A stretch of 64,000 nucleotides of DNA from assembly GCA_027943885.1 (NCBI GenBank), contig AP027078.1:310001-374000 (forward strand), given 5' to 3'. The notes beneath the pieces are model-generated. The model ran no database searches. It saw nothing but the letters and a program-made list of their open reading frames with translations, and was not told the origin of the DNA. Position numbers and translations under genes: made by a program. Each line of letters starts with the position of its first letter. Within the stretch, counting starts at the first letter, position 1. The stretch comes from Candidatus Tyloplasma litorale. Its GTDB lineage: Bacteria > Bacillota_I > Bacilli_A > Mycoplasmatales > Hepatoplasmataceae. This document shows positions 8,132 through 36,078 of this stretch, in pieces.

Positions 8132-9391
8132 TTATATATTATTATTTCAAATTAAAACTCTTTTTTTCTTTCCAATATTTATAAAACAAACTTGCTCCAA
8201 ATAAAATTCATTTTTTAAAATGATTTTTTCATCTTGAATAGTTTTACCATTCAATTTTATTGATCCATTATTTAAAAATTCACGATATTGTCTTCTAGAA
8301 GAAATATATTCTTTTTCAATTAATAAATCCATTAATGATTTATTTTCATTTTGAATAGAAGGAAGATTTTTTAAATCATACAAATCATTTTTTGAAATTT
8401 TTTCATAATCTTCATTAAATAAAATTTTAGAAAGATTGAAAGATTTTTCATAATTTTCTAATGAATGAACAATAGATATAAACCTTTTAGCTAAGTCATT
8501 TTGCAATAATTTTTTCTTTGGATTATTTTGATGTTCATTTTTAATTTCATTAAATTCTTTTTCAGTAATACTTGTTGCTTGCAATAATAATTTTTGAGCC
8601 ATATCATCTGTTTGATTAATTAGAAATTGAAATAATTCATAACTAGAAGTTTTTTTAATATCTAATCAAATTGGTTTTCCACTTGTCTTACCAATTTTAT
8701 TTCCATTTTCATCAGTTAATAAATTTATTGTTATTCCTGATATATCAACTTCTTTTCCATGAAATTTTCTAATTAAATCAATACCAGCAGTTATATTGCC
8801 TCATTGATCAGAACCTCCAAGTTGAAGTTTTACATTTTTATTTTCAAATAAATATAAAAAATCAATAGCTTGAAATAATTGATATGAAAATTCGGTGTAA
8901 GAAATTCCTTGATTTATTCTATTCTTAACTGATTCCTTTGCAAGCATTGTGTTAATATTAAATAGTTTTCCATACTTTTGATATAAACTTATTATTGATA
9001 AATTTTCATAAACTTCATTATTATCAAAAATTTCAAAATTTTTGATATCCATTTTTTCACAAAGTTCTTTAATTAATTCACCTATTTTTCAAACATTATT
9101 TTTTACAACAGAATGATCAATAATCTCTCTTTCAGAATTTTTACCTGAGGGATCACCAATCATACCTGTGAAACCACCTAATACAATTATTGGTTTTAAT
9201 CCATAATTTGATAATATTTTAACTAAAGATAATGATAAAAAATGACCAATATGGATGGAGTCTGAAGTAGGATCAATACCAATATAAAAAGCATCACCAT
9301 TATTAATAAGTTTTTTTAAACTATCCTCATTAGCTATATCTTTTAATAAACCTCTTCAAGATAAATTTGATTTCAAATCTTTTCATTTCAT
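8132..9391 (-). CDS. tyrS: Tyrosyl-tRNA synthetase
   Basis: Charges tRNA(Tyr); 419 residues, as expected for bacterial TyrS. Near the start are FYIGIDPTSDSIHIGHFLSL (HIGH motif) and GGFTGMIGDPSGK. QLGGSDQWGN binds tyrosine/ATP, GKTSGKPIWLD is the KMSKS-loop equivalent, and an S4-like RNA-binding domain ends the protein (SRRQYREFLNNGSIKLNGK). UGA-coded Trp in SDQWGN and near the C-terminus moves the true stop to TAA at 8132. The start is the second of two nearby in-frame options; MKWKDLKSNLSWRG fits the family. Confidence 0.96.
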
Positions 9392-13123: not shown

Positions 13124-13133
13124 TCATTAAAAT

Positions 13134-13163
13134 AAAAAGAGATGGAAATTTCCATCTCTTTTT
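13134..13163. terminator. Bidirectional terminator, degV / DEAD helicase
   Basis: Perfect 30-base palindrome with arms AAAAAGAGATGGAAA. A run of A on one side and T on the other makes it work in both directions, and it lies between convergent genes; it even touches the helicase stop codon. Confidence 0.85.
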
Positions 13164-14277
13164 ATTTTAATTTAATTTTTGTAAAATTAACATTTGGGTT
13201 TTTTTTAACTATTTCATTGTATCTATAAATATCAGAATCATTATAAATATCATATATATTTCCTTTAACAATATTTCTATCTGTTCTACCTATTCTATGT
13301 TTATAGTATGTTAAATCAATCGGTAAAGAATAATTGACAATATGAGTAACACCTGGAAAATCCATACCCCTAGACATTAAATCTGTAGTTATTAAGTAAA
13401 TTATTTCTGATTTATTTATTTTTTTTAATAGTCTATTTCTTTCTCTTTGTGATAAATTAGAGCTAAATAAAGCAACATTTTTGAATCCCTTTGTTTTTAA
13501 TTTTGAATAAATAAATTCTGCTTCTTCATTTGTTTTTGTGAAAATTAAAGAAAAAAAAGGATTAAATTGATTTGAATTTAAAAGTTCTATTAAAGTTTTT
13601 AATTTATCACCATCATATGCTTTTATAAAAAAAGAATCTATTTTATCTTGAGCATCTTTTTTAATTATTATATTATCTATTTCTTTATTAAAAGTTTTTT
13701 TAATTAAATTTTGAAGTTCAAGTGGAAAAGAAGCAGAAAAAAATGAAATTGTTGTTCAATAAGGTATTTTTTTAGATATAACTTCAATATTTTTAAATGC
13801 ATCAAAATTAAAAATCATGTCAACTTCATCAATAATAAAATATTTTAAATCAATTAAAGAGTGATTTATTTTTTCTCTTAAAGAGTTTATTCTATCTATA
13901 GTACCAATGATTATTTGACTTCCATTTTTTAGTTTTCTTTCTTGATCATTAAAATCTTCCCCACCAATTGCTAAAAGTGATTTGATTTCATAATCTAAAA
14001 ATGGTTTTATTTCTTTTAAAACATTATGAATTTGAGTTGATAATTCTCTTGTAGGAGCAATTATTATTGCTTGAGTATTAAAATTGTCAAAATTAATATT
14101 TTGTAATATAGGTAATAAAAATGTTAAAGTTTTACCAGTTCCTGTAGGAGCTTCAATAAAAAGATTTTTTTTCTTAATCAATTTAGGTATAGCAATATTT
14201 TGTATAGGTAATAATTTTTCAAATTTTTTATAATTTAAATATTTATTTAATGATGGATTAATGTAGTTTATATGCAT
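13162..14277 (-). CDS. DEAD-box-type RNA helicase
   Basis: 371 residues, just the two RecA-like domains with no extra C-terminal RNA-binding domain. Motifs: Q-motif region LLPIQNIAIP, Walker A APTGTGKT, PTRELSTQ, GTIDRI (usually GTPxR), motif II IIDEVDM (DEVD instead of DEAD), motif III SASF (SAT), motif V TTDLMSRGMDFPGV and motif VI HRIGRTDR. These changes and its place next to nif3 and trmK match the CshB-like helicase of mycoplasmas. It likely helps ribosome assembly or RNA decay. Its first 20 bases overlap the end of nif3. Confidence 0.9.
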
Positions 14278-33430: not shown

Positions 33431-33459
33431 AAAGTCATTTTATTTTATAAAACAACTTT
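33431..33459 (-). terminator. Terminator after P1B ATPase gene
   Basis: Imperfect inverted repeat (AAAGT...ACTTT, arms about 13 bases with one or two mismatches) followed on the minus strand by a T run. It begins within the stop codon of the ATPase. Confidence 0.6.
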
Positions 33460-35530
33460 AATTATTATTTTTTCTTTCAAATTTATTTTTATTATCTAAA
33501 AAAAGAGTTGATGCATTAATCATTGCAACTGTATCATTAAAAGTCATTGACATTGCTGAAAGCGCAGGTCCAATACCACTCATTCCAATTATTCCTGTTG
33601 CTGCTAATGAAACAAATATAATATTATAAAATATAGCAATTAAAAACCCTCTATTTATTGTTGACAATGTTTTTCTAGATAGTCAAATAGCATAAGAAAC
33701 AAGAGTTAAGTCACTTGAATTTAAAACAACATCTGCAACATCAATTGCTGCATCCATACTTGTATTTATAGCAATACCTAAATCAGAATTTGCTAAAGCT
33801 ATTGTATCATTTATCCCATCCCCAACAAAAGCAATCTTCTTACCTTTTTTTCTTAATTCATCAATAATATTTGATTTTTTATTAGGATCAATTTCATAAA
33901 ATATATCTTTTGAAGAAATACCCAATTTAGAACCGATATTTAAGGCTGTTTCTTTATTATCTCCTGTAATCATCATAATGTCAATACCCATTCTTCTCAT
34001 TTGTGATAATGCCATTAATGCTGTTTCTTTTATTTCATCTTTTAATTCAATATAACCATAAACTTTCTTACTATCAAATAAATATATAATAACTGAACCA
34101 TCTTTACGAAGATTAACTACATTTTCATTTTCTATAAATGAATTATTTATTTCTTTTAATCATTTATAAGATCCAATCATAAGTTTTTTTTCTTCAATTA
34201 AAATACCCTTACCAATAATTTCTTTTGTTCTAATTTTGAAAATTTCAATATTTGAAAAATGTTTTGTTATTGATTTAGCTAAAGGATGATTAGAATTTTT
34301 TTCAGCACTAACAAAAAGTTCAATCATTGAAGAAGGAATTGTTGAACTAACAACCTTAAATTTCCCTTTTGTTAATGTACCTGTTTTATCAAAACATATA
34401 GTATCTATTTTTTTAATTGTTTCAAAAATATTTTTAGAAGTTAGTAAAACACTTTCTTTTTTTGATGCAAAAGAGGAAATTAAAACTGACATCGGAGTTA
34501 TTAAAATAAAGGAACATGGACAAGCTATAACTAAAACTGTTATAAAAACATAAAAAGAATATAATCAAGGTTCATTTAAATATGTATGAACAGGAATATT
34601 AAAACTAGTTAATGAATAAACTAAGCCAGTAGTAATAAAAGTAATGATAGCTATAACTAAAACTGAAGGTACCAATCATTTAGCTATTTTATCTGCGATT
34701 TTTTGAGAATCAGGTTTAGCATTTGTAGCCTCATTTATGGAATTTATTATTTTTGATATAAAAGAATCATCAACTTCTTTTTCTACTTGAACAACAATTA
34801 AACCATTAGAAGAAACAGTTCCTGAAAAAACTCTTGAACCAATAATTTTATGAATTGGCATTGATTCACCAGTTAAAGTAGATTCATCAATTGTTGTTTC
34901 TCCTTCTACAATTTTCCCATCAGCAGGAACTATTGAACCAGGTTTAACAATAAGAAAATCATTAATTTTCACATTAGATATTTCTACTTCAATTTCTTTT
35001 CCATCGACTAATTTAATGGCTTTTTTTGGTTTTAAAGATTCCAATGAATTCATATCATTAGTAACCTTATTGGTTAATCATTCTTCTATAAATCTTCCTA
35101 AATATATTAATCATAAAATTTCTAAAGATTCATAGAAAAAATAAGGTAAATCATTATTTGTTGATAAATTAATTATAAAAGCAATAAGTGAATAAAAATA
35201 AGATGCTGAAGTTGCCATGGCAACCAACATATCCTCACCTATTTCTTTTTTCATTAATTGAACCATAGAGCTCTTTATAAAAGCAAATCCAACTAAAATA
35301 AATGCTAATGTTGAAATAACAAATTGTAATCAATCATTAGACATAATATATAATATAGGATTCCTTCATTCATCAATTTTAATGAATAGACTAAAAATCA
35401 TATAATAAATAGATAATGCACCAAATATAGTTGTATAAACTAATATTCATTTTTTAGGTTTATATTTTCCATCTTCAGAATACAATCCCAAATGATTTAA
35501 AATTTTTTTTCAAATTACCTTTAAATTCAT
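33458..35530 (-). CDS. P1B-type heavy-metal (probably copper) exporting ATPase
   Basis: 690 residues. The CPC metal motif is at 337-339 (VIACPCSFI), phosphorylation site FDKTGTLTKG with Asp381, the TGES loop LTGESMPIH, the HP motif NHPLAKSI, and GDGINDTIALANSDLGIAI near the end. About eight hydrophobic segments surround these. There is no N-terminal CxxC metal-binding domain; the protein begins almost directly with the first membrane helix. CPC indicates Cu(+)/Ag(+) or related soft metals. No CsoR or CopY regulator or CopZ chaperone is adjacent. Start ATG lies 6 bases after TATAAT, so probably leaderless, mirrored with the dUTPase gene. Confidence 0.9.
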
Positions 35531-35584
35531 ATTAATATTATATATTAATTAATAATAAATAAATATATAATATTAATATGAATT
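35524..35584. promoter_or_regulatory. Perfect 22-base inverted repeat holding two divergent leaderless promoters
   Basis: Arms 35524-35545 and 35563-35584 are exact reverse complements (22 bases) around a 17-base AT spacer. Each arm contains, reading outward, TATAAT, six bases, then the ATG and the second codon AAT of a gene: the P1B ATPase on the minus strand and the dUTPase on the plus strand. Neither gene has a ribosome site, so both transcripts should begin at the ATG. Confidence 0.8.
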
Positions 35585-36078
35585 ATAATTTTGAAAAAAT
35601 GGCGAATAAACAAAAAGAATTAGATCATTTTATAAGAAGCAATTCCATAGATAAAATAAATAATGAAAAATATTTTAATTATAGAATAATTGCTCTTAGT
35701 GTTGAAATATCTGAACTTGTTAATGAAATAAGATTTTTCAAATTTTGATCTCAAAAAAAGCCATCAGAAAAAAAGATAATTATAAATGAATTAGTTGATT
35801 GTTTTCATTTTGCTTTTTCAGTAGGTAATACATTACAAAATAATGAATGAAAAATTAATTTTAATTTAGATGAGAAAGATTCTTTTGAAAATATTTATTT
35901 TAATTTACAAGAAAATTTAATAAAATTAAAAGAAAGCAAAAATTTAAAAACATTTTATAAAATAATGATGGATATTACAAAAATTGCTTGAAACTTAAAT
36001 TATTCACAAAAAGACATTGAAGAAGCATATAAAATCAAAAATGAAATTAATTATAAAAGACAAAACTCAGGTTATTAA
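35578..36078 (+). CDS. Dimeric dUTPase (all-alpha NTP pyrophosphatase family)
   Basis: 166 residues on the plus strand. ALSVEISELVNEIRFFKFW contains the ExxE metal motif, and ELVDCFHFAFS the second one (usually ExxD); these are the marks of the dimeric dUTPase/MazG fold used by Firmicutes phages and many Mollicutes. It hydrolyses dUTP to dUMP and PPi, keeping uracil out of DNA. Three UGA Trp codons are needed to read it, so it is invisible as a long ORF under the standard code. It ends inside a terminator hairpin and overlaps the stop of the convergent gene. Confidence 0.85.

Follow-up and report, generated by a model that had tools for sequence, protein, structure and literature searches.

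A 61-bp near-palindrome in the genome of Candidatus Tyloplasma litorale takes in the starts of two divergent genes, one for a heavy-metal ATPase and one for a dUTPase. The palindrome is real and stands out statistically, and known processes account for it best. In the reading that we favour, with a probability of roughly 60%, a quasipalindrome arose from two distinct leaderless promoters that overlap each other, and template switching during replication then homogenised it.

Anatomy of the near-palindrome

The analysed DNA, hereafter the window, is a 64-kb stretch (bases 310001–374000) of AP027078.1, the very small, AT-rich, single-contig genome (615,622 bp) of Candidatus Tyloplasma litorale Fukuoka2020. 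This bacterium belongs to the Hepatoplasmataceae and is a gut symbiont of the isopod Tylos granuliferus (PMC10928387, Table 2). Two genes, both read with TGA as Trp (code 4), diverge here from an intergenic gap of 47 bp (35531–35577). The minus-strand gene (33458–35530) encodes a P1B-type heavy-metal translocating ATPase of 690 aa, whose translation contains the CPC and DKTGT motifs and matches TIGR01525 with E=1.1e-148 (496.6 bits; curated cut-off 346.25). The plus-strand gene (35578–36078) encodes an all-alpha dUTPase of the dUTPase_2 family, 166 aa long, of which residues 4–166 match PF08761 with E=1.7e-37 (129.6 bits; gathering cut-off 22.9). These matches bear out the two products, a metal ATPase and a dUTPase, proposed in a first-pass annotation of the window.

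The near-palindrome occupies positions 35524–35584 and is centred on base 35554. Its two 30-nt arms are separated by a 1-nt spacer and pair at 28 of 30 positions (93% complementary), with both mismatches located close to the centre. The left arm (35524–35553, minus strand) holds the promoter, start codon and codon 2 of the ATPase gene, and the right arm (35555–35584, plus strand) holds the same elements of the dUTPase gene. The outer stem, formed by 35524–35546 and 35562–35584, is perfect over 23 bp. Base-by-base pairing thus confirms the symmetry noticed in the first-pass annotation and lengthens its perfect inverted repeat from 22 to 23 bases. Each arm terminates as TATAAT-N6-ATG-AAT(T), the N6 being ATTAAT on both strands, in agreement with the order given there of TATAAT, a six-base gap, ATG and the next codon. 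The -10 hexamer of the ATPase gene (35537–35542, minus strand) lies 6 nt from the ATG at 35530–35528 (G000:345528–345542, minus strand), and that of the dUTPase gene (35566–35571, plus strand) lies 6 nt from the ATG at 35578–35580 (G000:345566–345580, plus strand). The distance between the two hexamers is 23 bp, and the predicted starts are 48 bp apart. The gap is almost pure A/T, and a search of its 47 bp for a TTGACA-like -35 element found none.

A wider palindrome was rejected. A self-match of 81% over 95 bp, which would have carried the symmetry into both coding regions, counts each arm twice. The flanks of 35524–35584 align no better than ordinary gene starts (P=0.07–0.12), so that the similarity does not reliably extend beyond the fourth base after ATG. 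Given the published coverage of the genome, 527x Illumina and 223x ONT (PMC10928387), an assembly artefact is an unlikely source of the palindrome.

Hairpin formation, which had been put forward as a check, is supported by computation: DNA folding predicts a stable structure of -17.1 kcal/mol, with a z-score of -6.5 and none of 200 shuffles folding as well. Were transcription to start at the ATG, however, the hairpin would be absent from both mRNAs. For the strong fold to have an effect, the DNA would have to extrude a cruciform or the start sites would have to lie upstream of the ATG.

Leaderless gene starts in the genome and its relatives

Throughout the genome, TATAAT-N6-ATG occurs at 42 sites, compared with 15 for a reversed-pattern control. 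In a survey of open reading frames that covered the window, eleven 20-kb stretches (L065–L075) and 14 short stretches of the genome, 31 such sites are followed directly by an ORF or by a reading frame that stays open to the end of the examined piece. The spacing between TANAAT and ATG was tabulated for the 227 ORFs of at least 100 aa in the window and L065–L075; it is exactly 6 nt in 22 of them, as opposed to 5 at a spacing of 7 and 3 at a spacing of 8. This layout fits what is known of mollicute promoters, which depend on TAWAAT and have a degenerate -35 box.

On both strands of the near-palindrome, the -10 distance puts the predicted start site on the start codon. Both arms are therefore predicted from their geometry to be leaderless promoters, a reading well supported in silico, and the first-pass view of two divergent promoters with leaderless geometry gains support from the 42 sites against 15 and from the sharp spacing peak. 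The transcription start sites themselves we infer from this geometry.

The distribution of -10-to-ATG distances is bimodal, with a second peak of 22 ORFs at exactly 9 nt and at most 8 ORFs at any distance other than 6 or 9 (n=227). TATAAT-N9-ATG is likewise enriched in the whole genome (60 sites against 18 for the control). The two peaks suggest leaders of 0 nt and 3 nt, with leaders of 1–2 nt avoided; the putative 3-nt leader is often ATT, GTT or ACT ahead of ATG.

The N6 layout is also enriched in the two metagenome-assembled genomes (MAGs) of the same genus (42 against 17 and 58 against 21) and in genomes G003 (74 against 23) and G004 (45 against 7), and is weakly enriched or not enriched in four genomes of genus g4, including Hepatoplasma. 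Across the ten genomes compared (G000–G009), the spacing classes follow lineage: N6 and N9 are both enriched in the genus of the window, N6 is the only class clearly enriched in G003, G004 and G006, and in g4 the enrichment is mainly of N9.

Identity of the arms beyond promoter constraint

How far chance and shared promoter sequence account for the symmetry was assessed with several null models. When the entire window was Markov-shuffled 20 times, perfect arms with at most 60 nt between them never exceeded 14 nt. Of 6000 Markov sequences modelled on the very AT-rich local composition, one reached a run of at least 23. For a null model of paired promoters, we used the 29 other TATAAT-N6-ATG starts, which form 406 pairs, and the 21 alignment columns that lie outside TATAAT and ATG. 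The ATPase and dUTPase starts match in 19 of the 21 free columns, and the 406 other leaderless pairs match in 9.6 on average and in 16 at most. Under independence of columns, the probability of a 19/21 match is ~3e-5 for a case that was picked from a 64-kb window. The resemblance of the arms thus exceeds what constraint or chance would give, as expected of a corrected quasipalindrome, and the earlier impression that their identity goes beyond the needs of a promoter consensus holds. Perfect arms of at least 16 nt occur 16 times in 284 kb, and this is the only pair that spans two divergent start codons; the others lie mostly at gene 3' ends or in convergent or same-strand gaps, as terminators would.

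Several other repeats were noticed. At 13126–13171 of the window, a perfect, loopless 46-bp palindrome lies between convergent genes and overlaps the 3' end of the minus-strand gene; it is probably a bidirectional terminator. At L075:10124–10185 (G000:590124–590185), two perfectly paired 22-nt arms enclose an 18-nt loop; this repeat lies close to where a predicted minus-strand ORF of 562 aa begins (L075:10233), a position that is not terminator-like. In G006 (C10:57414–57435), TATAATTCATATATGAATTATA is a perfect 22-bp palindrome in which two opposite-strand TATAAT-N6-ATG sites overlap and point inward. In L072, three successive large minus-strand ORFs, starting at 8405, 11144 and 14298, are almost identical in their upstream DNA and opening codons (ATATTTTGAATATGATAAAATTA..TTGTTATGCTTAAAAAA), which suggests a family of tandem genes whose promoters were duplicated with them.

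The gene pair in relatives

Of the genomes compared, one allows the gap itself to be examined. In the same-genus MAG DT_51 (G001; JABSQD010000035.1), the dUTPase and ATPase genes are also divergent and are separated by 45 bp, with the dUTPase start taken from a reading of the sequence; the ATGs given by the automatic start-finder lie a long way upstream within the open frame. The dUTPase is 48% and the ATPase 50% identical to the proteins of the window, too diverged for a trustworthy alignment of the intergenic DNA. Each gene in DT_51 has its own -10-like boxes, and the ATPase-side -10 stretch TATATAATAT is found there also. The palindrome was not found in the DT_51 gap, where the best dyad is short (14-bp arms) and scores 9, compared with 25 in the window.

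Elsewhere, the two genes lie far apart (G005, G007 and G008), or the contig stops inside the ATPase gene and the gap falls beyond its end (G002). A dUTPase search of genome contigs found no close relatives, and an alignment search with the ATPase for closer relatives returned only the two same-genus MAGs and one Asgard MAG. Loss of symmetry in close relatives had been named in advance as an observation that would speak against the first-pass reading; symmetry is indeed lost in DT_51, the sole comparable relative, but that genome is distant (AAI ~54%; PMC10928387). Either the gene pair would predate the palindrome, or the palindrome would have decayed in DT_51.

The ATPases of DT_51, G003 and G006 carry a long His-rich N-terminal tail that is absent from the ATPase of the window (33458–35530). 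The ATPases of the Hepatoplasma-like genus g4 (G005, G007 and G008) likewise lack it. The window ATPase begins just before LKVIWKK, which by eye, though not in the MAFFT alignment, can be lined up with LWKFIKK of DT_51, the residues that follow the first His-rich part of the DT_51 protein.

Origin of the symmetry

We propose that two leaderless promoters of the sigma-70 type stand back to back in the 47-bp gap, one for each gene, and that the RNA of each gene would begin on the A of its ATG, at 35530 for the ATPase and 35578 for the dUTPase. Because both arms have the same TATAAT-N6-ATG order, the gap would already have been an imperfect palindrome. During replication, a nascent strand may then have folded back and copied itself, a process known as quasipalindrome correction. 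Such a template switch would have homogenised the outer 23 bp, codon 2 included, without mending the mismatches of the central loop. Template switching fits the observed anatomy, in which a perfect outer stem that takes in codon 2 surrounds an imperfect centre, and it fits the lack of a palindrome in DT_51. In E. coli, template switching converts quasipalindromes to perfect or more perfect repeats (PMC7202029), and a single event can make or repair perfect stems (PMC8794818). The event, with its direction and date, is a proposal drawn from the present sequence; the gap of DT_51 is less symmetric, at a divergence too great to polarise the change. The symmetry itself would require no dedicated function. 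Each -35 region adjoins the -10 element of the other promoter, so the footprints of RNA polymerase would overlap and simultaneous occupancy is unlikely. One polymerase at a time in the gap, and hence competition between the promoters, would be the likely consequence.

Chance keeps some probability as the source of the palindrome. Two strong leaderless promoters in near-pure A/T DNA would share their constrained columns in any case and could agree at the others by luck. Any two leaderless starts agree at ~46% of the free columns, the local Markov model reached a run of at least 23 once in 6000 sequences, and the site was chosen post hoc from 64 kb. Nevertheless, the match at 19 of 21 columns, where none of the 406 other pairs exceeds 16 (P ~3e-5), together with the standing of this site as the sole divergent start-codon pair among 16 perfect arms of at least 16 nt in 284 kb, makes coincidence unlikely, if still a serious competitor.

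A more radical role for copying is improbable. A template switch or inverted duplication might have transferred an entire promoter, together with the gene start, from one gene to its neighbour, so that a 5'-truncated ATPase gene acquired its present start. The missing His-rich tail, the position of the ATPase start just before LKVIWKK and the extension of arm identity into codon 2 speak for such a capture. However, the gap is of the same length in DT_51 (45 against 47 bp), the presence there of TATATAATAT argues against a new ATPase promoter, and Hepatoplasma-like homologues lack the tail too; the ATPase N-terminus is accounted for just as well if the original start was kept and an in-frame deletion followed it. 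The idea can be generalised: in genomes with leaderless, -10-only promoters, every divergent pair of leaderless genes would automatically be a quasipalindrome, and a template switch could hand a working promoter and start codon to the neighbouring gene in one event. That this happened here, at the loss of the His-rich N-terminus of the ATPase, is a conjecture to which we give little credence.

A shared operator is disfavoured and, of the alternatives weighed, has the lowest probability. The dyad would serve one metal- or nucleotide-responsive regulator that represses or co-regulates both genes, as the earlier suggestion of a common metal-responsive regulator supposed. In favour of this, the dyad symmetry covers each of the -10 boxes, metal efflux pumps are typical targets of such regulators and the gene pair is kept together in DT_51. 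Yet a six-frame Pfam search of the genome detected no ArsR, CsoR, Fur, MerR or BlaI/CopY domain (PF01022, PF02583, PF01475, PF13411 and PF03965) where control genomes were positive, so a regulator would have to come from a family beyond these five. In addition, the dyad is not conserved along with the gene pair in DT_51, and a dyad with 30-nt arms that includes codon 2 exceeds the usual size of an operator. A structural rather than a functional cause, also the preference of the first-pass annotation, is the better reading. The recent inversion offered there as another option fails on logic, since flipping the spacer leaves the arms no more alike and cannot on its own create arm identity.

Comparison with known systems

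The arms resemble leaderless bacterial genes in having TATAAT 6 nt ahead of ATG and no recognisable -35 element. Among Mollicutes, leaderless transcripts are reported in Mesoplasma florum and Mycoplasma gallisepticum, but only a few were mapped there, which calls for some caution over the starts predicted here. In the present genome the layout appears common, and two such starts form a near-perfect palindrome. As in quasipalindrome template switching described for E. coli (Ripley, Lovett) and for RNA genes (Monttinen and Loytynoja), an imperfect repeat would have become more perfect and mismatches lie near the loop; the differences are that the parent quasipalindrome would here come from two functional promoters and that the case is known from its end-state sequence alone. 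Divergent transcription, sequence symmetry and possible polymerase competition are shared with the bidirectional promoters of Warman, Grainger and colleagues. Those, however, are defined by one shared -10 element, and the distance between their starts is commonly 10, 18 or 23 bp (PMC12825309); here two -10 elements lie 23 bp apart with predicted starts separated by 48 bp. By the published definition, the locus is thus not a bidirectional promoter but two promoters that diverge.

Both leaderless starts and template switching have been described before, and their combination is a modest new example, but a clean one: back-to-back leaderless, -10-only starts make a natural quasipalindrome that is open to homogenisation by replication. 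Symmetry between promoters therefore need not imply a regulator. The peaks of -10-to-ATG spacing at exactly 6 and 9 nt may outrank the palindrome in interest. The locus also points to a family of isopod symbionts that may often start their genes without a leader.
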